A stretch of 36,738 nucleotides of DNA, taken from assembly GCA_903838985.1 (NCBI GenBank), contig CAIMAO010000038.1, positions 1 through 36,738 on the forward strand, given 5' to 3'. The stretch's first letter is position 1. Each line of letters begins with the position of its first letter. Positions 4,934 to 33,859 of the stretch are shown here, piece by piece. Made by a program: the position numbers and the translations under genes. The DNA is from an uncultured bacterium (GTDB lineage: Bacteria; Patescibacteriota; Minisyncoccia; Phycocordibacterales; UBA9973). The notes below the pieces were generated by a model. It worked only from the letters and a program-made list of their open reading frames with translations. It was not told where the DNA came from and did not search any database.

Positions 4934-5278
4934 ATGAGTAATATTTCTGAAAAAAGAATATGCCAGAACTGTAAAGGTGAATTCTTAATCGAGCCTGAAG
5001 ATTTTTCTTTTTATGAAAAAATAAAAGTTCCTCCACCTACATTTTGTCCAGAATGTAGAAGACAACGTAGAAACGCATGGAGAAATACTTTTTCTTTATA
5101 TTCTAGAAAATGTGATTTATGTAATAAATCGGTCGTTTCTATTTATTCTCTAGATTCTGGGATAATAATTTATTGTAATAAATGTTGGTGGAGTGATAAA
5201 TGGGACCCCAAAAATTATGGCGTAAATTATGATTTTTCTAAGCCATTTTTTTTTACAGCACAAAGAGCTCATGAATAA
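4934..5278 (+). CDS. Zinc-ribbon family protein, N-terminal part of a frameshifted gene
   Basis: 114 residues. The N-terminal family zinc module is intact: C10-x2-C13, 24 residues, C38-x2-C41, 18 residues, C60-x2-C63, 17 residues, C81-x2-C84. The frame then runs through a tract of nine T (5246-5254) and ends in an out-of-frame tail (TAQRAHE). Removing one T restores KPFFLQHKELMNKIP, which aligns with RPFFEQLSELFKNVP of the copy at 30.4 kb and joins this piece to the downstream frame as a 576-residue protein. It is either a real +1 frameshift (inactivation or slippage) or a homopolymer sequencing error. Confidence 0.85.
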   Translation: MSNISEKRICQNCKGEFLIEPEDFSFYEKIKVPPPTFCPECRRQRRNAWRNTFSLYSRKCDLCNKSVVSIYSLDSGIIIYCNKCWWSDKWDPKNYGVNYDFSKPFFFTAQRAHE

Positions 5279-6665
5279 AATTCCCCATATGGCTGTTGTA
5301 AATGATGATGGCATAGCTAGTGTTAATTGTGAATATACTCATGATACTTGGTTTTCTAAAAATTGTTATATGATGTTTTCTGGTTGGTATATTGAAAATA
5401 TTATGTATAGTTTTTTTGTTACTGCTGGTAAAAACATTATTGATACTATCATTAATATGGCTCGATCAGAATATCTTTATGAATGTATAAATTGTTCACA
5501 TGGTTATAATGTAAAATATTCTGAATATGCTGGAGCATGTATTGATTCTCAATTTATGTTTGACTGTAGAGATTGTTCGGATTGTTTTATGTGTTCTGGA
5601 CTCAGAAATAAAAAATACTTTTTTAAAAATAAACAATATACAAAAGAAGATTATGAAAAAATTTTGGGTGAATACAAACTAGATACTTTCTCTGGAGTAG
5701 AAAAAGCAAGAGAAGAATTTAAAGAATTTATTTTAAATTATTCTCGTAGATATGCATGGTTTAAACAAAATAAAGATTGTTCAGGTGATGTTATCTCATA
5801 TAGTAAAAATACTAAAAAATGTTTTATCTCAAAAAGATGTGAGCATTGTAAATATAGTGAATATCTAACTAGTGATAAAGACTGTTATGACCTTGTTATG
5901 TCTGGAGAGCTTTCCGAAAGCTATGAGGGGGTAGTGGTTGATCATTCTCAATTAAATCTTTTTGGACTTTTTTCAGTAAAAAGTCAGGATATTAAATATA
6001 CTCAGCATTGTCATTCTTCTAAATATTTATTTGGTTGTGTTGGTTTGAGAAACGCACAATATTGTATCTTTAATAAACAATATACAAAAGAAGAGTATGA
6101 AGAATTAATTCCAAAAATAATTAAACATATGAATGATATGCCATATATAGACAAAAATGGGAATAAATATCGTTTTGGGGAATTTTATCCAATTGAATTT
6201 TCACCTTTTGGTTATAATGAAACTCTTGCCATAGAAGATATCGCATTAACAAAAGATGAAATTATTGACAAAGGATTTAAATGGCAAGGAAACTTACAAA
6301 GAACTACTGGTAAAGAAACATTGAAACCGGAAAATATTCCTGACTCTATAAATGATGTGTCAGATTCTATTCTAGAAGAAATACTTGTTTGTATAAATTG
6401 TAAAAGAAATTATAAAATTGTTCCAAATGAACTTATTCTTTATAGAAAAATGAAAATACCAATTCCACGGAGATGTTTCCATTGTAGACATAAAAATAGA
6501 ATAAGGAAGATGAATCCTTTTAAGCTTTGGCATAGGCAATGTATGTGTGATAAAGAAAACCATGAACACAGTGAAAGATGTAATATTGAATTCGAAACTT
6601 CTTATTCATCTGATAGACCTGAAATTATCTATTGTGAAAAGTGTTATCAGCAGGAAATATATTAG
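5229..6665 (+). CDS. Zinc-ribbon family protein, remainder of the frameshifted gene
   Basis: Second frame of the gene beginning at 4934; family homology begins at the T-tract (about 5246), and the first internal ATG is at 5271. It holds the duplicated Cys/Tyr/Asn-rich core: the first half ends GLRNKKYFFKNKQYTKEDYE and the second GLRNAQYCIFNKQYTKEEYE. The C-terminal zinc module follows (C-x2-C-x24-C-x2-C-x18-C, then a knuckle widened by a His-containing insert, then C-x17-C-x2-C) and ends QQEIY. The function is not recognised. The widened knuckle (CDKENHEHSERC) is peculiar to this copy. It ends 32 bases before the next gene. Confidence 0.85.
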   Translation: MIFLSHFFLQHKELMNKIPHMAVVNDDGIASVNCEYTHDTWFSKNCYMMFSGWYIENIMYSFFVTAGKNIIDTIINMARSEYLYECINCSHGYNVKYSEYAGACIDSQFMFDCRDCSDCFMCSGLRNKKYFFKNKQYTKEDYEKILGEYKLDTFSGVEKAREEFKEFILNYSRRYAWFKQNKDCSGDVISYSKNTKKCFISKRCEHCKYSEYLTSDKDCYDLVMSGELSESYEGVVVDHSQLNLFGLFSVKSQDIKYTQHCHSSKYLFGCVGLRNAQYCIFNKQYTKEEYEELIPKIIKHMNDMPYIDKNGNKYRFGEFYPIEFSPFGYNETLAIEDIALTKDEIIDKGFKWQGNLQRTTGKETLKPENIPDSINDVSDSILEEILVCINCKRNYKIVPNELILYRKMKIPIPRRCFHCRHKNRIRKMNPFKLWHRQCMCDKENHEHSERCNIEFETSYSSDRPEIIYCEKCYQQEIY

Positions 6666-11273: not shown

Positions 11274-11780
11274 ATGGAACAAAATAAAAATTTTTTTGTT
11301 AATATAAAAAAACCAGACAATCTTACTATAGAGGAACTTATTCAAAAACGTGCTGAAAATAAAAACAATGAAATTGATTTAGAAAAAAAGGCTAAAGAAG
11401 TATGTAGTAGATATAAGAAAGGTGATATTTTTGATTTTTCTTTAAATAGGAAAGGTAATCTTTTTGAGATTATTTTAGATGAAGTAAAAGTTGGTAGTTT
11501 TAATATCTCAATTAATGATGAAGAAAGCACTCATATTGGGATGATATATATTAATGAAAATTTACAAAATAAAGGATTTGGTAAACAACTATATATTAAA
11601 TTAAATGATTATTTGAAAAATTCTGAAAATAAAGTTTTAATGACTGACAAGATGAGAAATAGTCCTGCTGCTACACATTTATGGGAATCTTTGGAAAAAG
11701 ATGGATTAGTTGAAAAACTTCCTGATAAAACATCTCCAGATGGTCATCCAGTTTATAAATTTAAAAAAGAGGGAATCTAA
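11274..11780 (+). CDS. GNAT-family N-acetyltransferase
   Basis: 168 residues. The acetyl-CoA binding motif A is visible as IGMIYINENLQNKGFGKQLY (Q-x-x-G-x-G), followed by a helix and the C-terminal segment RNSPAATHLWESLEKDGLV, typical of GNAT proteins. The N-terminal ~60 residues are charged and lysine-rich. The acceptor substrate cannot be told. It sits between dnaJ (12 bases upstream) and a zinc-ribbon gene (4 bases downstream), suggesting co-transcription. Confidence 0.8.
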   Translation: MEQNKNFFVNIKKPDNLTIEELIQKRAENKNNEIDLEKKAKEVCSRYKKGDIFDFSLNRKGNLFEIILDEVKVGSFNISINDEESTHIGMIYINENLQNKGFGKQLYIKLNDYLKNSENKVLMTDKMRNSPAATHLWESLEKDGLVEKLPDKTSPDGHPVYKFKKEGI

Positions 11781-11784
11781 ATCT

Positions 11785-13455
11785 ATGAATAATAGTGAAA
11801 AAAGAATATGTCAGAATTGTAAAAAAGATTTTGTGATAGAACAAGATGATTTTTCTTTTTATGAAAAAATAAAAGTTCCTCCACCTACATTTTGCCCAGA
11901 ATGCAGACAACAGAGAAGAATGGCATGGAGAAATGATTATGATTTTTATCATAGAAAATGTGAATTTTGTGAGGAAAGAATATTATCTATTTACTCAGAA
12001 GATAAGCCTTTTAAAATATTATGTCCAAAATGCTGGTGGGGAGATGGTTGGGATCCAAAAAAATTTTTACAAGAATTTAATTTTGGAGAATCATTTTTTT
12101 CTCAGTTTCGACGGTTTATGGAAAAAGTGCCAGTATTGGGGGTTTTAAATGATAATAATATAGCAAGTATAAATTGTGATTATACGAATTATTTTGCACT
12201 AGGAAAAAATTGCTATATGGTTATAAATTCTTGGAAAGTTGAAAATTGTATGTATTCTGTTTGTTTAGTCGATGTCAAAGATTCAATTGATTGTGCAGTT
12301 TTACTCAACGGTGGAGAAAATCTTTATCATGCTATTTATGTAGAAAATTCTTCTCGTTCAAAATATGTATATAATTCCGCATTACTTTTAGATTGTTTTT
12401 TCTGTTTTGATTGTAGGGGGTGTACTAATTGTTTTATGTGTTTTGGATTAAGAAACAAAAGTTATTGTTTTAAAAATAAACAATATAGCAAAAATGAATA
12501 TAAGAAAATTTTAGAAAAATATAAATTAAATTCTTGGACTGGAATAGAAAAAGCAAAAAACGAGTTTAAGAAATTTTCACTTAGTTTGCCTCATAAATAT
12601 GCAAATATAAATAATTGTGTGAATTGTACAGGAGAATATCTTGTTAATTCAAAAAATTCAAAACATTGTTACATTACAGTGCGTGCTGAAAATTCTAAAT
12701 ATTTTGAACGTGGAGATACTATAAAAGATAGTTATGATTGTTTAAGTGGAGGAGAACAGGAACTTTGTTATGAATCTATTAATCCTGATAATTCTTACAA
12801 AACTTTATTTACAACTTATTGTCACAGGTGTACTGATGTTCTTTATAGTGATAGTTGTCAATCATCAGAAAATCTTTTTGGATGTGTAGGACTTAAAAAA
12901 GCTAAATATTGTATTTTTAATAAGCAATATTCTAAAGAAGAATATTTTTCTATGAAAGAAAGAATTATTGAACATATGAAAAAAACATGTGAATGGGGTG
13001 AATTTTTTTCAATGAAATATTCTCCATTTGCATATAATGAATCTGTAGCGCAAGATGAGTTTCCTCTCTTAAAAGAAGAAGTTATAAAAAGAGGATTTTT
13101 TTGGCAAGAATCAATTACAAAAACAAAAGGGAAAGAGACGTTAAAAGAAATTCCAGACAATATAGAAGATATTGATGATTCTATCTTAAATGAGATATTG
13201 ATATGCCAGTCGTGTGACAGAAATTATAAAATTGTTAAAAACGAATTAAATTTTTATAAAAAGAATTTAATTCCAATACCGCGTGAATGTTTTTTTTGCA
13301 GATTAAAAGGACTTTATAAAGAAAGAGGCCCTGTAAAGCTTTGGTATAGACAATGTATGAAAGAAGGATGTACTAATAAATTTGAAACTTCTTATGCCCC
13401 TGATAGGCCAGAGATTATTTATTGTGAAAAATGTTATCAGCAAGAGGTTTATTGA
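11785..13455 (+). CDS. Zinc-ribbon family protein, intact copy
   Basis: 556 residues from the ATG at 11785; earlier in-frame starts overlap the GNAT gene. N-terminal zinc module C9/C12, C37/C40, C59/C62, C80/C83 and C-terminal module C474/C477, C502/C505, C524/C529, C547/C550 share the same spacings (24, 18, 17). Between them lie two related core units rich in Cys, Tyr, Asn and Ser, each ending in GL(R/K)xxxYCxxNKQYSK(N/E)EY. It ends QQEVY followed by TGA. Short motifs such as SKYVYNS and KNSKHCY recur about every 20 residues and could form a beta-helix; this is speculation. No signal peptide or membrane segment. The function is not known to me. Related copies in automated annotations carry unreliable names. 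Confidence 0.85.
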   Translation: MNNSEKRICQNCKKDFVIEQDDFSFYEKIKVPPPTFCPECRQQRRMAWRNDYDFYHRKCEFCEERILSIYSEDKPFKILCPKCWWGDGWDPKKFLQEFNFGESFFSQFRRFMEKVPVLGVLNDNNIASINCDYTNYFALGKNCYMVINSWKVENCMYSVCLVDVKDSIDCAVLLNGGENLYHAIYVENSSRSKYVYNSALLLDCFFCFDCRGCTNCFMCFGLRNKSYCFKNKQYSKNEYKKILEKYKLNSWTGIEKAKNEFKKFSLSLPHKYANINNCVNCTGEYLVNSKNSKHCYITVRAENSKYFERGDTIKDSYDCLSGGEQELCYESINPDNSYKTLFTTYCHRCTDVLYSDSCQSSENLFGCVGLKKAKYCIFNKQYSKEEYFSMKERIIEHMKKTCEWGEFFSMKYSPFAYNESVAQDEFPLLKEEVIKRGFFWQESITKTKGKETLKEIPDNIEDIDDSILNEILICQSCDRNYKIVKNELNFYKKNLIPIPRECFFCRLKGLYKERGPVKLWYRQCMKEGCTNKFETSYAPDRPEIIYCEKCYQQEVY

Positions 13456-22010: not shown

Positions 22011-22099
22011 GCAGATTCTGCAAAGAATTTTTGAGTCTTCGCCCTCGGAGTCATAAAGACAGGGGACCCACGACTCTTAAAATTCTTTGCAGAATCTGC
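22011..22099. repeat. Palindromic element, core family B, copy 1
   Basis: Perfect 21-bp arms at 22011-22031 and 22079-22099 enclose a GC-rich core of about 47 bases. Within the core GAGTC (22033-22037) pairs with GACTC (22072-22076), CCCT (22042-22045) with AGGG (22061-22064) and GTC (22050-22052) with GAC (22058-22060). The same core, with three or four base changes, occurs at 29728-29813 between unrelated arms. It lies between divergent dnaB and trpS, ending about 10 bases before the trpS -10 region. Confidence 0.85.
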
Positions 22100-22121: not shown

Positions 22122-23078
22122 ATGTCTAAAAAAGTATTATTATCAGGGGTAAAGCCAACAGGTGCACCACATATAGGTAATTATTTTGGTGCAATGAAAC
22201 AATTTGTAGAACTTCAAAATGATTATGATGGTTATGTTTTTATTGCTGATTATCACGCTTTGAATTTTATTCAAAATAAGGAAGAAATGCATAAAAATAT
22301 TATTAATATTTTACTTGATTATTTAGCTATTGGCCTCGATCCTAAAAAAATAACAATATTCAAACAATCTGATATTTTAGAACACACAGAACTTGCTTGG
22401 ATTTTTGATACTTTTACAACAATGCCATACCTTATGCGTGCTCATGCGTATAAAGATGCGCTCGGCAAAAATAAAGAAATATCTGTTGGCACATTCAACT
22501 ATCCGATGCTTATGGCAGCTGATATTTTACTTTACGATGTAGATGTAGTTCCTGTAGGACAAGATCAAAAACAACATGTAGAATATGCGAGAGATACAGC
22601 AGAGAAATTTAATTATATTTTTGGTGAAACTTTTAAACTACCAGAACCAATGATTATGAAAGATGTTGCAGTTGTTCCAGGGATAGATGGGAGAAAAATG
22701 TCAAAAAGTTATAACAATCACATTCCACTTTTTGCATCACATGAGGAGGTTAAAAAATGTGTGATGGGTATAGTCACAGACTCTAGTGGTGGTATTCCTA
22801 AAAATGTCTTTGCTATACATAGTTTGTTGAGACCAGAAAAAGAACTTTTACCAATATATGAAAGCAAGGCGGGTAAATATAAAGAATTAAAAGAATTATT
22901 AATTGAAGATTTAGAAAAATTTATTGCACCACTTCGAGAAAGAAGAAAAGAATTTGAGAAAGATATTCCCAAAGCTTTAAAAATCCTTGAAGAGGGAAGC
23001 AAAAAGGCAAAAATTGTAGCTTCAAAAAAAATGCAAGAAGTAAAAGAAAAGATAGGGGTAAATATCTATGAAAAATAA
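22122..23078 (+). CDS. trpS: Tryptophan--tRNA ligase
   Basis: 318 residues, class I. SGVKPTGAPHIGNYFGAM has the HIGH-type motif at residues 17-20. TrpRS-specific elements follow: the DYHAL loop, NYPMLMAADILLYDVDVVPV and GQDQKQHVEYARD. The KMSKS loop (GRKMSKSYNN) is near residue 191. It charges tRNA-Trp. Its 3' end overlaps the trpR-like gene by 11 bases (ATGAAAAATAA), coupling the synthetase to a presumed Trp-sensing regulator. Confidence 0.97.
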   Translation: MSKKVLLSGVKPTGAPHIGNYFGAMKQFVELQNDYDGYVFIADYHALNFIQNKEEMHKNIINILLDYLAIGLDPKKITIFKQSDILEHTELAWIFDTFTTMPYLMRAHAYKDALGKNKEISVGTFNYPMLMAADILLYDVDVVPVGQDQKQHVEYARDTAEKFNYIFGETFKLPEPMIMKDVAVVPGIDGRKMSKSYNNHIPLFASHEEVKKCVMGIVTDSSGGIPKNVFAIHSLLRPEKELLPIYESKAGKYKELKELLIEDLEKFIAPLRERRKEFEKDIPKALKILEEGSKKAKIVASKKMQEVKEKIGVNIYEK

Positions 23079-23355
23079 TTCTCAGCAATATAAAAAAGAA
23101 ATTATTGAAGTAATCTATAAAATATCTAAAGATAAAAATCTTTTAGCTGATTTTATAAAAGATATATTGACTCCTCGGGAATTTGATAATATTGGGGTTC
23201 GATGGCAAATCATAGAACGTATAGCAAAAGGGGAACATCATCAAGCTATTGCAGAGGAATTACATTTAGGAGTAGCGACCGTCACTCGTGGTTCAAGGGA
23301 AATGCGTAAAAAGGAAGGAGGATTAAGGAGAGCCTTAAAGGTTATCCACAAGTAA
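23068..23355 (+). CDS. trpR: TrpR-family repressor
   Basis: 95 residues, all helical, covering the TrpR fold. LTPREFDNIGVRWQIIERIAKG corresponds to the dimer and Trp-binding segment (E. coli [20 protein letters not shown]). The helix-turn-helix AIAEELHLGVATVTRGSREM matches LKNELGAGIATITRGSNSL. The related YerC branch shares this fold, so Trp as ligand is not proven. Two contexts favour it: the gene overlaps trpS, and a 30-bp palindrome followed by a Trp-Trp leader ORF begins 30 bases after its stop. It probably represses that promoter when Trp is plentiful. Confidence 0.85.
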   Translation: MKNNSQQYKKEIIEVIYKISKDKNLLADFIKDILTPREFDNIGVRWQIIERIAKGEHHQAIAEELHLGVATVTRGSREMRKKEGGLRRALKVIHK

Positions 23356-23368
23356 TATCTTTTCCCTA

Positions 23369-23414
23369 TTGATTTATTTTTAGTATATACTATCATACTA
23401 GTATGATAGTATAT
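23369..23414 (+). promoter_or_regulatory. Promoter with 30-bp perfect palindromic operator
   Basis: TTGATT (23369-23374), 16 bp, TATCAT (23391-23396). The -10 box lies inside a perfect palindrome, 23385-23414: ATATACTATCATACT followed by its complement, centred on ACTAGT. Known TrpR operators also carry CTAG cores. Position just downstream of trpR and over the -10 makes this a probable repressor operator; the assignment to TrpR is inference. Confidence 0.7.
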
Positions 23415-23451
23415 TGTTCTTTAATTAATTTACATAAAGGAGGTGATTTAG

Positions 23452-23496
23452 ATGGGTTGGTCTTCGTTAGACGACTGGTGGTGTTTAGGGCTTTGA
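23452..23496 (+). CDS. Trp-rich leader peptide, 14 codons
   Basis: The ORF encodes MGWSSLDDWWCLGL and stops with TGA. Three of 14 residues are Trp, two in tandem (TGG TGG, 23476-23481), as in trp leader peptides. It has a perfect Shine-Dalgarno, AAAGGAGGTGAT at 23436-23447, with 8 bases between GGAGG and the ATG, in a region where other genes have none. A terminator hairpin follows 32 bases after the stop. In the leader RNA GGTGG (23477-23481) can pair with CCACC (23515-23519), while TGTTT (23482-23486) can pair with AAACA of the terminator arm. No trp biosynthetic gene follows in the window. Expected role: sensing charged tRNA-Trp. Confidence 0.75.
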   Translation: MGWSSLDDWWCLGL

Positions 23497-23528
23497 TTTT
23501 TAAAACGGCTTTGCCCACCGTATCATTT

Positions 23529-23569
23529 TTGCCAAACATTATATCTGTGATGTTTGGCAATTTTTTATA
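23529..23569 (+). terminator. Terminator of the Trp leader
   Basis: TTGCCAAACAT (23529-23539) pairs perfectly with ATGTTTGGCAA (23550-23560) across a 10-base loop, followed by TTTTTTATAATTT. A canonical intrinsic terminator placed where an attenuator would be. Confidence 0.9.
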
Positions 23570-23611
23570 ATTTAGTTTTTCCACAGATGGTTTTGATATA
23601 AGGTTTATATA

Positions 23612-23620
23612 TGTTATAAT
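23612..23620 (+). promoter_or_regulatory. Extended -10 promoter upstream of the second leader
   Basis: TGTTATAAT matches the extended -10 used elsewhere in the window. The predicted start near 23627 is about 6 nt before the ATG of a 27-codon ORF. It is independent of the Trp leader promoter upstream. Confidence 0.6.
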
Positions 23621-23632
23621 GTTAATTCAATT

Positions 23633-23716
23633 ATGAAAGGTTTTAAAAATACAAAAATTATTGGTCTCGTCTGCCCAGTCCTCTTTATTAAAAAGGAGCC
23701 GTTTGTTTTTGTATAA
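23633..23716 (+). CDS. Possible 27-residue leader ORF
   Basis: The ORF reads MKGFKNTKIIGLVCPVLF and continues for nine more residues to the TAA at 23714-23716. It has no Shine-Dalgarno and would be near-leaderless. The middle (IIGLVCPVLFI) is rich in Ile, Leu and Val, and in C-ending codons (CTC GTC TGC CCA GTC CTC) that are unusual for this AT-rich DNA. Its stop codon lies inside the left arm of a predicted antiterminator. This suits a leader peptide whose translation chooses between two hairpins; it may also be a chance ORF. Confidence 0.4.
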   Translation: MKGFKNTKIIGLVCPVLFIKKEPFVFV

Positions 23717-23777
23717 AATTAATTAAATTTAAACAAAAAAACAAAACTGGCTCCGAATAAAATCGAAGCCAGTTTTT
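23695..23777 (+). promoter_or_regulatory. Candidate attenuator: competing hairpins
   Basis: GGAGCC (23695-23700) can pair with GGCTCC (23749-23754), extended by a GTTTGTTTTTGT / ACAAAAAAACAAAAC pairing, giving a long imperfect stem. Alternatively AAAACTGGCT (23743-23752) pairs with AGCCAGTTTT (23767-23776), with a further CG/CG and five T, an intrinsic terminator. The two folds share 23743-23754 and exclude each other. The downstream gene would be the 77-residue ORF at 23891. Confidence 0.6.
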
Positions 23778-23786
23778 CGTTTAAGG

Positions 23787-23890: not shown

Positions 23891-24124
23891 ATGTGTGGTT
23901 TTTTTGACGAAGAGGATCCTAATCTAAGAAATCTAGGGAAAAAAATCGCTAGAGAGAACTCGAGAGGGATAAAAAAAGAAAAAGGTGAGAAAATTAAGTT
24001 TGATACAAACTTTATACCACCTAAAGATTACCATTTTTGTTCTTCTCTCACAAATAATAAAGAAGATACAAAAATTTCTTCCTCTAATTCTGTAGATGAA
24101 CAACATCTCAGGGTTATGATGTGA
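23891..24124 (+). CDS. Uncharacterised 77-residue protein
   Basis: It starts MCGFFDEEDPNLRNLGKKIA, then a Lys-rich middle and a Ser/Asn-rich end; no signal peptide, membrane segment or recognised domain. It has a good Shine-Dalgarno (AGAAGGAG ending 6 bases before the ATG), rare among the genes here. Just upstream are two sets of competing hairpins, and a strong terminator follows 10 bases after the stop, so it forms its own regulated transcription unit. The segment AAGGAGTCGTTT before its ATG resembles AAGGAGCCGTTT at 23693-23704, suggesting a partial duplication of the leader. The function is unknown. Confidence 0.6.
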   Translation: MCGFFDEEDPNLRNLGKKIARENSRGIKKEKGEKIKFDTNFIPPKDYHFCSSLTNNKEDTKISSSNSVDEQHLRVMM

Positions 24125-24205: not shown

Positions 24206-24211
24206 ATGTAT

Positions 24212-24406
24212 ACAGCCATTGAACCAGCAAACACTGGGGAGGTGGGAAAAGAAAACCCTGAGTTTATCAAAGGGTAAGTAGAATTCCCCGTTTACCGCGT
24301 TAAGGTTTAAATTAAGTTAAAAGTAGGGTGGTACCGCGACATGAAAAATCGCCCCTGCAAATTTATCAATTAAGATAAGTTTGGAGAGGCGATTTTTTAT
24401 TTTCTC
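24212..24406 (+). ncRNA. T-box leader controlling aspS
   Basis: AGGGTGGTACCGCG at 24325-24338 is the consensus T-box sequence. Its AGGG and GCG pair with CCCT and CGC of 24350-24355 (antiterminator, UGGU bulge at 24329-24332). The competing terminator pairs AAAAATCGCC (24344-24353) with GGCGATTTTT (24388-24397), with an inner CAAATTTATC/GATAAGTTTG stem, then a T-run. The 5' part holds CCAG/CTGG (24224-24237) and GGGGA/TCCCC (24236-24240 with 24285-24289). It is short for a T-box (about 110 nt before the motif) and I cannot assign the specifier codon; AAC at 24253-24255 is one candidate. Readthrough should rise when the cognate tRNA is uncharged. Confidence 0.92.
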
Positions 24407-24419
24407 CATCAAAAAATAT

Positions 24420-25769
24420 ATGAAGAATAGAATATATATAAAAGATTTAAAAGACAATATAAGTAAAGAAGTTATTATAGCTGGTTGGGTTGATGTAAGG
24501 CGTGACCAAGGGAAAATGGTATTTTTTGATATGCGTGACATGACAGGACGTGTTCAAGCAGTAGCATTACCAAATAGGACAGAAGTTATTGAGCAAGCAA
24601 AAGAGATTAGACTTGAGTGGGCTCTTAAAGTTATTGGTTTAGTAAATAAACGTCCAGAAAGAAATATTAAAGAAGGAATACTAAATGGGGATATAGAACT
24701 TGAAATTACAAAAATAGAAGTATTATCAGAAGCTCTTCCTCTTCCATTTGATATGTCTTTGGATGGTTATAATCTAGAATTGACAACAGAGTTAGACAAT
24801 AGATCATTGGTTTTAAGACAACCAAAAAATCAAGCAATTTTTAAAGTTCAGGAAACCGTTATAGATTCTTTCAGAGAATTTATGAAAAAGAATATGTTTT
24901 TTGAATTTCAGGCTCCAGCTATAACTCCTGCGACAGCAGAAGGTGGAGCTGAGGTTTTTCAAGTTGATTACTTTGATAAAAAAGCATACTTAACACAATC
25001 ACCTCAATTATATAAACAGATAGTTATGTCAGCTTTTGAAAGATGTTTTTCTGTAAACAAAGTATTCCGAGCTGAACCATCTTCAACAACAAGACATTTA
25101 ACGGAAATAGTTTGTTTAGATGTAGAAATGGGTTTTATTGATTCTTGGACAGATGTGCGTGACGTAGCAGAAGAAACTTTTAGATATATTTTAGAACAAG
25201 TGCAAACAAAAAACGCAGAACATTTGAAACTGTTAGGTGTCACACTTCCTGTAATGACAGAAAAGACTCCCACATATTCTCTAAGAGAAGTTCAACAAAA
25301 GATTTTTGAAGTTTATGGTCGTGATGTTAGAGGGGAAAAAGATACAAATCCTCAAGATGAAAGAGAGATCTCTGAAATAGTTAAAAAAGAAACAGGTTCT
25401 GACTTTGTATTTATTTATGGGTACCCTACAAGAAAGAAGCCTTTTTATGTCTATCCAAATCCAGATGAACCAGAATACAATGAAGGTATGGATTTGATAT
25501 GTCGTGGAGTAGAATGGTTATCCGGAGGAAGAAGAATAAATAATTATAATCAACTAATGGAACATGTAAAAATTTGGGGAATGGATCCAAATAAAGTTAA
25601 AATGTTTCTTGAGGCATTTAAATATGGAGTTCCGCCTGAAGGAGGTTTTTCTTTTGGAGCAGAACGTATAACTATGCAGTTGCTTAATTTGAAAAATATT
25701 CGTGAAGCAGCAATGTTTCCAAGAGACATGAATAGAATTGACGAAAAATTAAATAGCGATGGTTATTAA
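24420..25769 (+). CDS. aspS: Aspartate--tRNA ligase, archaeal/short type
   Basis: 449 residues from the ATG at 24420; the TTG at 24381 lies in the terminator stem. The N-terminal OB domain (VIIAGWVDVRRDQGKMVFFDMRD) binds the anticodon. The class II core has motif 2 FRAEPSSTTRHLTEIVCLDVEMGF and motif 3 GGFSFGAERITMQLL, ending NIREAAMFPRD. The roughly 120-residue GAD insert of ordinary bacterial AspRS (about 590 residues) is absent, so this is the archaeal/AspRS2 type, often non-discriminating and used with GatCAB to make Asn-tRNA. Discrimination cannot be read here with confidence. It is controlled by the T-box upstream; pepA follows after 17 bases. Confidence 0.95.
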   Translation: MKNRIYIKDLKDNISKEVIIAGWVDVRRDQGKMVFFDMRDMTGRVQAVALPNRTEVIEQAKEIRLEWALKVIGLVNKRPERNIKEGILNGDIELEITKIEVLSEALPLPFDMSLDGYNLELTTELDNRSLVLRQPKNQAIFKVQETVIDSFREFMKKNMFFEFQAPAITPATAEGGAEVFQVDYFDKKAYLTQSPQLYKQIVMSAFERCFSVNKVFRAEPSSTTRHLTEIVCLDVEMGFIDSWTDVRDVAEETFRYILEQVQTKNAEHLKLLGVTLPVMTEKTPTYSLREVQQKIFEVYGRDVRGEKDTNPQDEREISEIVKKETGSDFVFIYGYPTRKKPFYVYPNPDEPEYNEGMDLICRGVEWLSGGRRINNYNQLMEHVKIWGMDPNKVKMFLEAFKYGVPPEGGFSFGAERITMQLLNLKNIREAAMFPRDMNRIDEKLNSDGY

Positions 25770-30397: not shown

Positions 30398-32134
30398 ATG
30401 GAAGCAGAAAAGAAAATACATTCGATAAACTCAGTATCTACGAACTGCCAGAATTGCAAAGGTGAATTTTTGATTGAGCCAGATGATTTTTCTTTTTATA
30501 AAAAAATGAAAGTGCCAGCACCTACATGGTGTCCTGAATGTAGAATAATAAGAAGGATGTTGTATAGAAACGAAAGATCTTTATACAAACAAAATTGTGA
30601 TCTTTGTAATAAACCTACCATTTCAATGTATGATCCTAGAGATAAGTATGTTGTATACTGCAATGATTGTTATGCTTCTGATAAATGGGATCCAATAAAT
30701 TATGGAGTAGATTACGATTTTTCAAGACCATTTTTTGAGCAATTAAGTGAATTATTTAAAAATGTTCCACGAAGGGCTTTGTATAAAGATTATGCTGTAA
30801 ATAGTGAATATACAAATCAATCAGTATATATGAAAAATTGCTATCTTTGTTTTGGTGGACATCATTATGAAGATAGTGCTTATTGTGCTCAAAATTTTTA
30901 TTTAAAAAATTGTTTAGACACTGATTTCTCTCATAAAAGTGAATTCTGTTTTGAATCGCTTCATTTAAAAAATTGTTTTAGAGTTAGATATGGATTTTAT
31001 TCTGAAAGTTGTATGGATTCTTGGTTGATTTATGGTTGTCGTAATTGCTCAAATTGTGTTGGTTGTACAAATTTGATAAATAAAAATTTCTGTATTTTTA
31101 ATCAACAATATACCAAAGAAGAATATGAAAAAAAAGTTGAAGAAATGGGCCTTTCTAATCCAGAAAATTTAGAAAAAATTAAATTAGAATTTTTTAAAGA
31201 TTCTTTAAAATTTCCAAGAAAATATGCGAATATAAAAAATATTGTAAATTCTACGGGAGACGACATAGAACAAGTAAGGAATTGTAAATATGTTTTTTCT
31301 GTGACTGAAGGTGAAAATATTAGATATTCTTTTTTTTCTCCAACAGGAGCAAAAGATTGTTTTGATATAGATCATGCTGGGCTCGGTCTTACTGAGGCTT
31401 ATGAATTACATAGCGGTTTTGGTGACAACAGAGTTTTATTTTCCAATAGAATCTATGATTCTCACAATGTTGAATATTCAGATGATTGTTATAACGATGA
31501 ATATCTTTTTGCTTGCGCCGGATTACGTAAAAAATCATACTGTATTTTTAACAAGGAATATAGCAAAGAAGAATACGGCATACTCGTAGAAAAAATTAAA
31601 AAGCACATGGATGATATGCCTTATGTAGATAAGAAAGATAGAGTATTTAAATACGGAGAATTTTTCCCAATAGAAGTTATTCCTTTTAGTTATAATGATT
31701 CTGTTATTTGTGAATATTTTCCTTTGACTAAAGAAGAAATTATAGAAAGAGGTTATAAATATGTCGAACCAGAAATAAAAAATTATAAACCAACCATTTT
31801 GCCGCATCAGTTGCCCTCTGTTGAAGATGTAGATGAAAATATTTTGCAGGAGGTTATTCAATGTGAGCATATGGGTCATTGTAATGATAGATGCACTTCA
31901 GCTTTTAGAATAATTCAAAATGAATTAAATATTTGTAAAATGTTAAAAGTTCCGTTACCAAAACTTTGTCCAAATTGTCGTCACATGTCTAGAATTAGTT
32001 TATTAAATGCACCTAGGCTTTATGATAGAAAATGTATGAAAGAAGGCTGTCAAAATAAATTTGAAACAAGCTATGCTCCAGATAGACCTGAAATTATTTA
32101 TTGTGAAAAGTGTTATCAGCAAGAAGTTTACTAG
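30398..32134 (+). CDS. Zinc-ribbon family protein, first of a tandem pair
   Basis: 578 residues. N-terminal module C17/C20, C45/C48, C67/C70, C88/C91. The C-terminal module has the same spacing but a widened first knuckle (CEHMGHCNDRC, residues 489-499), then C524/C527, C546/C551, C569/C572, ending QQEVY. The central two-unit core includes NCYLCFGGHHYEDSAYC, a CRNCSNCVGCTNL cysteine cluster, and NFCIFNQQYTKEEY / SYCIFNKEYSKEEY closing each unit. It directly follows scpB and is followed after 21 bases by a second family member. No catalytic motif, signal peptide or membrane segment; the function is unknown. Metal binding follows from the cysteine pattern. Confidence 0.87.
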   Translation: MEAEKKIHSINSVSTNCQNCKGEFLIEPDDFSFYKKMKVPAPTWCPECRIIRRMLYRNERSLYKQNCDLCNKPTISMYDPRDKYVVYCNDCYASDKWDPINYGVDYDFSRPFFEQLSELFKNVPRRALYKDYAVNSEYTNQSVYMKNCYLCFGGHHYEDSAYCAQNFYLKNCLDTDFSHKSEFCFESLHLKNCFRVRYGFYSESCMDSWLIYGCRNCSNCVGCTNLINKNFCIFNQQYTKEEYEKKVEEMGLSNPENLEKIKLEFFKDSLKFPRKYANIKNIVNSTGDDIEQVRNCKYVFSVTEGENIRYSFFSPTGAKDCFDIDHAGLGLTEAYELHSGFGDNRVLFSNRIYDSHNVEYSDDCYNDEYLFACAGLRKKSYCIFNKEYSKEEYGILVEKIKKHMDDMPYVDKKDRVFKYGEFFPIEVIPFSYNDSVICEYFPLTKEEIIERGYKYVEPEIKNYKPTILPHQLPSVEDVDENILQEVIQCEHMGHCNDRCTSAFRIIQNELNICKMLKVPLPKLCPNCRHMSRISLLNAPRLYDRKCMKEGCQNKFETSYAPDRPEIIYCEKCYQQEVY

Positions 32135-32140
32135 CCCTTG

Positions 32141-32160
32141 GATAGTATATTAGATATGAA
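32141..32160 (+). repeat. 20-bp direct repeat at a gene junction, copy 1
   Basis: GATAGTATATTAGATATGAA begins after the stop of the first tandem zinc-ribbon gene and runs into the start codon of the next gene. An identical 20-mer occurs at 33866-33885 after the second. The bases between stop and repeat also align (TAGCCCTTG versus TAGTCTTTA). It contains TATATT, a possible -10 box. Confidence 0.8.
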
Positions 32161-33859
32161 AAGTGAAATAAAAAATTGTCAAAACTGTAAAAAAGATTTT
32201 GTTATAGAGCCAGATGATTTTTCTTTTTACGAAAAAATAAAAGTACCAGCACCGACATGGTGTCCAGATTGTCGTTTTCAAAGGAGATGTGTTTTTAGAA
32301 ACGAGAGAAAACTTTTTAGAAACATAGACGCAATTTCTAAAAAATCCATAATCTCTCTTTTTCCTCCTGAGGCAAATTTTCCTATTTATGAGGACAGTTA
32401 TTGGTGGAGTGACAAATGGGATCCTTGTGAATATGGCATAGATTTTGATAGATCAAGACCATTTCTTTCTCAACTTTATGAATTAAGCAAAAAAGTTCCA
32501 CATCCTCGTTCTGATGCTACTAGAATGGTAAGAAGTGAATATTCTGCAAATGCAGCAGATCTTAAAAATTGTTATCTAATATTTAATTCAACTTCAACCG
32601 AGGATTCTGCTTATGGTAATGCAGTAGATTACTGTAAAAATACATTTGATAACTCACATATTCAATCTTCAGAAAAATGTTACGAATCCTTTTGGTTAAA
32701 TAAATGTTATGATACTTATTTTTCTTCTCAGTGTGAAGAATGTGTTTCAGTATGGTTTTGTAAAAATTGTTATGGATGTATGAATTGTTTTGGTTGTGTC
32801 AATTTAGTAAATAAGTCATATTATTTTTTTAATGAGCCGATGTCTAAAGAAAATTATTTAAATAAAATAAAATTGGTAAATTTATTTAGATGGACGGATC
32901 TTGAAAAAATAAAAAATGAAGTTAAAGATTTTTGGATTAATTTTCCTAATAGATATTTACAAGGAATAAAGAATCATTTGTGTAGTGGAGAATATATTTC
33001 ACATTCAAAAAATGTCCGTGATAGTTATTTAATAAGAGAAGGACAAGATTTAAAATATGTCCAATATGGTTTAGTTCCTAGTTTGAGGGATTGTATGGAT
33101 GTTTCTGTTAGTGGTAATAATAGTGAACTTATTTATGAAAGTGTAACATCAGGGTGGAATTCTTCACAAATAAAATTTTGTTATGAATGTTGGGATGGTG
33201 GGACAGATTTTGAATATAGTGTATTTTGTGGAAATAAAGCAAACCATGTTTTTGGTAGTGTGGCTATAAAAAGTGGTAATTACATTATTTTAAATAAAAA
33301 ATATTCAAAAGAAGAATTTATAAAACTTAGAGATGAAATTCGTGAACATATGGATAAAATGCCATATATAGATTCTCAAGATAGAGTTTATAAATATGGG
33401 GAATTTCTTCCTCCAGAATTTTCTCCATTTGCTTATAATGATACTATTGCCCCAGAACATTTTAGTCTTTCAAAAGAGGAAATTATTAAATATGGTGGTA
33501 ATTGGTATGAAATACCTAAGGCTGAATATTCAATAACTGTAAAAGCAGAAGATATTCCAAATGATATTCATGATATTCATGATAATTTTTTAGATGAAAT
33601 TATTTCATGTTTGAAATGTGGTCATGCGTATAAAATAATAATTTCTGAATTACAATTTTTAAAACAAAATAATATATCAGTACCAAGGTATTGTGTAAAT
33701 TGTCGTCACAATGAACGTATTTCTCAAAGAAATAAAAGTAAACTATATCATCGTTCATGTATGAAAGAAGGATGTCAAAATGAATTTGAAACTTCCTATG
33801 CGCCAGATAGACCTGAAATTATATATTGCGAGAAGTGTTATCAACAAGAAGTTTACTAG
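32156..33859 (+). CDS. Zinc-ribbon family protein with a degenerate N-terminal knuckle
   Basis: 567 residues from the ATG at 32156; a TTG at 32138 is possible, but the equivalent position after this gene reads TTA while the ATG is conserved. The first knuckle pair is intact (C8/C11, C36/C39), but all four ligands of the second are lost: by spacing they fall at D58, S61, E79 and Y82. The C-terminal module is complete and ends QQEVY. The core keeps the two-unit layout, with a CEECVSVWFCKNCYGCMNC cluster; the second unit ends YIILNKKYSKEEF. It arose in tandem with the upstream gene, judged by the shared 20-bp junction repeat. Partial loss of metal sites suggests divergence of function. Confidence 0.87.
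   Translation: MKSEIKNCQNCKKDFVIEPDDFSFYEKIKVPAPTWCPDCRFQRRCVFRNERKLFRNIDAISKKSIISLFPPEANFPIYEDSYWWSDKWDPCEYGIDFDRSRPFLSQLYELSKKVPHPRSDATRMVRSEYSANAADLKNCYLIFNSTSTEDSAYGNAVDYCKNTFDNSHIQSSEKCYESFWLNKCYDTYFSSQCEECVSVWFCKNCYGCMNCFGCVNLVNKSYYFFNEPMSKENYLNKIKLVNLFRWTDLEKIKNEVKDFWINFPNRYLQGIKNHLCSGEYISHSKNVRDSYLIREGQDLKYVQYGLVPSLRDCMDVSVSGNNSELIYESVTSGWNSSQIKFCYECWDGGTDFEYSVFCGNKANHVFGSVAIKSGNYIILNKKYSKEEFIKLRDEIREHMDKMPYIDSQDRVYKYGEFLPPEFSPFAYNDTIAPEHFSLSKEEIIKYGGNWYEIPKAEYSITVKAEDIPNDIHDIHDNFLDEIISCLKCGHAYKIIISELQFLKQNNISVPRYCVNCRHNERISQRNKSKLYHRSCMKEGCQNEFETSYAPDRPEIIYCEKCYQQEVY

Follow-up and report, generated by a model that had tools for sequence, protein, structure and literature searches.

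The window (the whole stretch of 36,738 nucleotides analyzed here) comes from an uncultured, ultra-small bacterium (Candidatus Nomurabacteria) and forms contig 38 of its 751-kb assembly. It carries a tryptophanyl-tRNA synthetase gene and a Trp repressor family gene, which overlap by 11 nt and presumably share one transcript (Table 1). The protein encoded by trpR matched the Trp_repressor domain PF01371 with 53.6 bits (gathering threshold, 27) and aligned with E. coli TrpR structures at 2e-7. Its score against the NCBIfam equivalog TIGR01321 (TrpR) was 43.8 bits, under the cut-off of 67.25, and we therefore refer to it as a TrpR-family protein and not as an equivalog of that model. The equivalents of E. 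coli T44, R54, T81, R84, and G85, which we take to be the L-Trp contact residues in the E. coli TrpR structure, were invariant among 13 aligned TrpR proteins from relatives. Comparison of the window trpR with the genes of relatives revealed purifying selection (dN/dS 0.05 to 0.12). On the 5′ side of trpS lies a long hairpin (22011 to 22099, arms GCAGATTCTGCAAAGAATTTT) that was found nowhere else in the genome.

Table 1. Features of the trpS-trpR locus and of the Trp unit behind it
Feature	Position	Strand	Remarks
trpS (tryptophanyl-tRNA synthetase)	22122..23078	+	TIGR00233, 288 bits vs cut-off 176.75
trpR (Trp repressor family, 95 aa)	23068..23355	+	PF01371, E=2.3e-14
Promoter TTGATT-16-TATCAT	23369..23396	+	-10 within the palindrome
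TrpR operator (predicted), perfect 30-bp palindrome	23385..23414		Boxes CTAT, CTAG, ATAG spaced 8 bp
boxA-like tail TTGTTCTTT	23414..23422	+	In relatives, 3′ of the trp attenuator terminator
Shine-Dalgarno AAAGGAGGTGAT	23436..23447	+	Same SD precedes the mini-ORFs of relatives
W-rich mini-ORF MGWSSLDDWWCLGL	23452..23496	+	Counterparts in relatives
H-type pseudoknot	23488..23521	+	S1 23488-23491/23513-23516 (GGGC/GCCC); S2 23505-23508/23518-23521 (ACGG/CCGU)
Intrinsic terminator of the Trp unit	about 23529..23566	+	Terminator scan and minimum-free-energy fold

A preliminary description of this DNA had listed, behind trpS-trpR, a perfect palindrome over a promoter -10, a strong Shine-Dalgarno (SD) sequence, an ORF with tandem Trp codons, and an intrinsic terminator, and all of these are present in the sequence. 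The arms of the palindrome (23385 to 23399 and 23400 to 23414) match at 15 of 15 positions with zero spacer. By our own estimate, the chance of a perfect 30-mer inverted repeat in 36.7 kb of A+T-rich sequence is roughly 2e-4. The palindrome is present as a single copy in the assembly, with up to 3 mismatches allowed, and a looser scan of the genome for further TrpR operators returned one match within the coding sequence of a murD-like gene plus some further weak ones, none of them convincing. The 8-bp spacing of its boxes is that of the E. coli trp operator. The promoter scan overall did not rise above shuffles; support for the window promoter comes from a register that is conserved in relatives (see below). 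The terminator scan of a 3-kb stretch found 3 terminators against 1.0 expected, and the terminator hairpin was present in the minimum-free-energy fold of positions 23403 to 23566 (z=-2.6). Presumably, this terminator also ends read-through from trpS-trpR. An ATG at the predicted +1, within the operator, starts a reading frame of 55 codons (MIVYCSLINLHKGGDLDG..., 23403 to 23570) that spans the whole Trp unit; it had no Pfam match and may be due to chance.

No Rfam family matched the Trp unit (23356 to 23570) at the gathering threshold or up to E=1. The preliminary description had also remarked that no trp gene follows in the window. This holds for the whole genome, in which we detected no match for trpB or for a chorismate-binding protein (trpE).

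We compared the locus with those of relatives, most of which are listed in the genome collection as Candidatus Nomurabacteria (Patescibacteria). With an E-value limit of 0.001, 60 of 147 family genomes gave a TrpR-like match, and 46 of these held close homologues (E below 1e-16). Forty surrounding regions were taken, and trpR was found in 39. At 36 of these 39 loci, an operator of the same kind was located 3′ of trpR. The comparison supports the proposed TrpR/operator circuit and also indicates that the Trp codons are under selection. In the window's clade, 16 aligned loci gave the operator consensus TATACTAGCATACTAGTATGATGATATT and a common promoter register, TTGCTT/TTGACT-17-TAGCAT/TATCAT.

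Next after the operator, most loci have a short ORF containing tandem Trp codons (typically ...KSWWGAE...FALFC), and a terminator comes behind it. Region 2 has two alternative partners, region 1 (the one with the Trp codons) and region 3, and regions 3 and 4 together form the terminator. In the alignment of these leaders (A5), 93.9% of the cells were paired in the 1:2 plus 3:4 fold, with a covariation of 0.320 versus at most 0.144 when slid, and 96.1% were paired in the exclusive 2:3 fold. Judged from these alignments, this is a classical trp attenuator, with a Trp leader, 1:2/3:4 and 2:3 alternatives, and trp genes. At the 3′ end of A5, the boxA-like tail forms a conserved block of columns. 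This sequence, TGTTCTTT, lies just 3′ of the attenuator terminators (positions 23414 to 23422 in the window) and resembles the boxA of NusB/S10; it is a possible antitermination site. In one clade the leader ATG is located 7 nt after the -10, which would place it at or near +1 and make the leader leaderless.

The attenuator model derived from the relatives (R3) matched 41 of the 147 family genomes, mostly in the window's genus. In the window itself, R3 gave chance-level matches only. The leader next to trpR is likewise missing or replaced in three other genomes (G118, G098, and G126); in G118, the attenuator is missing too and the operator is joined to the boxA-like tail as in the window. In G098, a gene of the Asp/Glu racemase family shares the frame of the operator's ATG and itself seems to replace leader and attenuator.

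The genes between trpR and aspS differ from genome to genome. The preliminary description had suggested checking sister genomes for trp genes at the corresponding place, and such genes do lie behind the operator there: trpB alone in G096, G122, and G128; trpBA in G073 and, by resemblance, in G079 and G146; and trpE or trpEG in G140 (with shikimate genes), G101, G081, and G145. Elsewhere the cargo is the protein of the Asp/Glu racemase family (G098), one of AstE/AspA type (G102), or a set of small proteins that lack annotation.

Beyond what had been described for the window, relatives hold two distinct conserved RNA elements in this region, of which the window carries the second alone. This element is found at the operon end and consists of an SD sequence, (A)AAGGAGGTGAT, a W-rich ORF of 3 to 14 residues, an H-type pseudoknot, and a terminator. 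The mini-ORF is followed by GGGCY...CGG.UUGGCCCACCGCA, and the terminator begins 0 to 7 nt further on in most cases. The encoded peptides in relatives include MLWDPEWR, MLWDNEVEIDWWR, MGWDVDWW, MWPAADEVWS, MRSLWDPW, MSMAWNIDEDWF, MWW, and MWGMV. Trp accounts for 21 of 79 mini-ORF residues versus 0.93% in window proteins; because the mini-ORFs were partly collected by seeking W, this excess carries a bias from which the model-only finds alone are free.

Stem S1 of the knot is GGGCY/RGCCC, and S2 occurs as GCGG/CCGC, ACGG/CCGU (window), GCGU/ACGC, ACGA/UCGU, and GAAGG/CUUUC. In the alignment of 11 instances (A4), 86.9% of the cells pair; the S2 pair count is lowered since the length of loop 2 varies and some rows are off by one column. 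None of 500 shuffles reached the covariation of 0.236 (shuffles, 0.148), which came to no more than 0.121 when slid. A knot-only model with S1 as its only structure (R1) found two genomes outside its training set, G091 and G130. Both carry a W-rich mini-ORF with a strong SD (MRSLWDPW and MSMAWNIDEDWF, respectively) just 5′ of the knot and behind a Trp attenuator. The family-wide TrpR search gave no close match in either of them, which suggests that the terminal element travels with the attenuator operon and not with TrpR itself.

Outside the window, all strong matches were on the same strand and 0.2 to 2.7 kb 3′ of a Trp attenuator. Two genomes, G117 (MYHYWPFR) and G102, hold a second copy of the element further downstream. 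The pseudoknot is limited to a single genus, in which about nine genomes carry it, and searches outside this genus returned weak matches only, at chance level or marginal. It is absent from G096, the nearest relative of the window that we found.

The mini-ORF and pseudoknot of the window are, by alignment and profile, homologous to this operon-terminal element, and this homology is much firmer than any function. A leave-one-out two-block profile, trained with the window left out, scored 37.1 at the window element, 15.9 at the next site in the window, and 15.2 in the best of 20 shuffles. S1 of the window has 4 bp, and the stop codon of the mini-ORF is shifted into it: the stop at TTAGGG used by relatives falls in another frame in the window, so that the ORF extends four codons past the WWC cysteine region into S1 and then reaches TGA. 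We also considered the ORF as a homologue of the KSWWGA leader of the relatives. This was rejected, as R3 had no match in the window and the ORF aligned to the terminal element. In the window the operator abuts this element directly, through TTGTTCTTTAA (the boxA-like tail) and then the SD of the mini-ORF, and the element is the sole operator target detected in the genome.

Our search for a conserved antiterminator in ten instances of the element (the window and nine others) gave no consistent excess over shuffles. The element is thus not established as an attenuator, and the function that we assign to it is a proposal. Since the 5′ arm of the terminator has no conserved competing partner, control of 3′-end fate or stability is likelier than control of termination. 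We rejected programmed frameshifting or read-through at the knot, for which there was neither a common slippery site nor a common frame past the stop. A miniature T-box, in which UGGC of the knot would pair with GCCA of tRNA-Trp, was also rejected, as UGG varies along with S1.

We consider it rather probable that the window holds a reduced Trp-regulated transcription unit with a translation-coupled Trp sensor. According to our model, when Trp is plentiful TrpR would bind the palindrome and shut the promoter embedded in it, as its homology and the form of the operator suggest. Under Trp shortage, the promoter would yield an RNA of about 160 nt, consisting of the Trp-rich mini-ORF with its strong SD, the pseudoknot, and the terminator. 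The first strand of the knot is located at the end of the mini-ORF, and a ribosome held on UGG or at the stop codon would cover S1. The UGGUGG codons, when free, could pair with the CCACC that S2 needs, and this pairing was seen in the minimum-free-energy fold of 23403 to 23566. The supply of charged tRNA-Trp would then set knot formation and, hence, the fate of the 3′ end of the transcript. We put forward only tentatively the wider proposal that a W-rich mini-ORF with an abutting H-type pseudoknot represents a new class of operon-end, translation-coupled amino acid sensor, which in the window would be the sole target of TrpR, the only output of the repressor being a 160-nt sensing transcript.

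The simplest account of the stripped layout is that attenuator and cargo were lost in the window's lineage, so that the operator came to abut the terminal element; the comparison with relatives shows that both are missing in the window, and from it we infer the deletion itself. Such a history could also have left an orphan remnant, in which the operator and terminal element, having lost their trp genes, are nonfunctional and decaying and only the terminator still serves trpS-trpR. The missing trpB, trpE, and attenuator are in line with this alternative, as are the displaced stop codon of the mini-ORF, the presence of trpB without the element in G096, and the fact that none of the sister genomes among the relatives showed the stripped layout. 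However, the operator and SD are perfect, all W codons are kept, the terminator is intact, and the S2 pairs are compensated (ACGG/CCGU). The otherwise intact element and the low dN/dS of trpR (about 0.1), a gene with no other visible target, argue against plain decay, and we regard a remnant as unlikely.

The preliminary description had read the layout as dual repressor/attenuator control. The repressor half of this claim agrees with the operator circuit described above, but the comparison does not support the ORF of the window as the attenuator leader. In a classical attenuator, stalling at the tandem Trp codons would let an antiterminator form and transcription continue to a 77-residue ORF (see below) or to aspS. 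The tandem UGG codons, the strong SD, and the terminator do follow in the correct order, and an upstream sequence, GUGUUUAGGGC, can pair with the 5′ arm of the terminator (-10.8 kcal/mol; 11 of 200 shuffles as low). However, this pairing uses codons just past the Trp pair, which a stalled ribosome would cover, and such an antiterminator was conserved in none of the nine other testable instances. The relatives' attenuator, which the window lacks, is not this element, and the next genes have a promoter of their own (11 of 12 matches), a second leader and terminator, and a T-box. We find this alternative improbable. The 77-residue ORF, which had been suggested as a possible output of the circuit, is not that output, since it is set apart from the Trp unit by that promoter, the second leader ORF, and its terminator. 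There is also little to recommend a reading in which the encoded peptide, tiny, acidic, and rich in Trp (M-L/G-W-D...D/E-W-W), is itself the product and acts on TrpR, TrpS, or the ribosome: codons differ synonymously around the recurring W-D/E-W pattern and ten peptides hold 16 acidic versus 4 basic residues, but the length ranges from 3 (MWW) to 14 residues, and a product that requires Trp would oddly be made in Trp shortage.

The reduced Trp-regulated unit that we favor resembles the E. coli trp operon (TrpR plus the trpL attenuator) in its TrpR family repressor and in operator CTAG boxes 8 bp apart, and the relatives share with that operon the Trp-codon leader, the exclusive 1:2/3:4 and 2:3 hairpins, and the trp genes behind them. 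Unlike E. coli, the window lacks the attenuator and the trp genes, and in the relatives trpR lies beside trpS, the leader ATG of one clade is at the predicted +1, and the cargo is often non-trp. The relatives are new members of the E. coli kind of TrpR-plus-attenuator control, and the RNA element within it is possibly new.

The chlamydial trpR-trpBA intergenic region (PMC6504234, PMC7755916) is similar to that of the relatives in that a palindrome and trpBA come right after trpR in a reduced genome. The likeness of the window to it, noted in the preliminary description, is superficial: the layout is similar, but the window has no trpBA, and the chlamydial attenuator is only predicted and not experimentally established (PMC6504234). 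Moreover, YtgR has been reported to bind the chlamydial palindrome, with no binding of TrpR seen at this site (PMC6504234). Actinobacterial trp and trpS attenuators (PMC1262725) share a Trp-codon leader and an overlapping antiterminator and terminator with the relatives; they belong to another phylum, and the window element differs from them in having no conserved antiterminator. The window element also resembles in form the LEU element of actinobacterial leuA, in which a short ORF of regulatory codons lies beside a conserved pseudoknot and the codon run can pair with nearby sequence (PMC1262725). In LEU, the Leu codons pair with the SD of the following gene (PMC1262725), whereas the window has a terminator in place of a following gene.

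We found no published Trp repressor/attenuator circuit in Patescibacteria in an open-access library. A full textbook TrpR-plus-attenuator arrangement in a genome-reduced, presumably host-dependent genus shows that amino acid sensing can outlive the loss of the pathway. One conserved switch is used with swapped cargo (trpB, trpBA, trpE(G), or unrelated genes), and the W-ORF/pseudoknot offers a concrete and testable RNA element, of which the window is the simplest form, in a group for which little RNA-based control has been described.

Behind the Trp unit lies a second attenuator-like unit (23593 to 23780) with its own promoter (23593 to 23620), an ORF (23633 to 23716, MKGFKNTKIIGLVCPVLFIKKEPFVFV), a terminator (23743 to 23776), and a competing GGAGCC pairing. 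Leaders at this position in relatives (L039, L048, L053, L054, L055, L059, L064, and L079) are rich in Phe (VNKNIQANSYFFFSF...LRRLIFAL; MKGLKNTKINSLWNFFFFKKELFVFV), which makes the second unit probably a Phe attenuator. The Rfam Phe_leader model scored 27 of 55 bits at 23686 to 23778, below threshold. The 77-residue ORF (MCGFFDEEDP..., 23891 to 24124) is located behind this Phe-type leader, as part of the unit after the Trp unit, and had no Pfam or NCBIfam match. The cargo at its position in relatives sometimes also starts Phe-rich (MFCFFNGPWDYP in L064).

A T-box leader (24210 to 24359; RF00230, 52.4 bits, E=5.6e-10, below the gathering threshold of 93) precedes a nondiscriminating aspS (24429 to 25769), and T-boxes before aspS are also found at L043, L049, L068, and L071. 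Stem I seems reduced to a tiny hairpin, with the loop CAAACA (AAC, Asn) in the window and L049 and CUGACA (GAC, Asp) in L068 and L071. We are aware of no published T-box from Patescibacteria, and a literature search found none. Elsewhere, the window carries paralogous long ORFs of about 570 to 580 aa, one of them split (4934 to 6665, 11710 to 13455, 30398 to 32134, 32138 to 33859, and 53 to 244), with Cys-rich ends and the common C terminus PEIIYCEKCYQQEVY.
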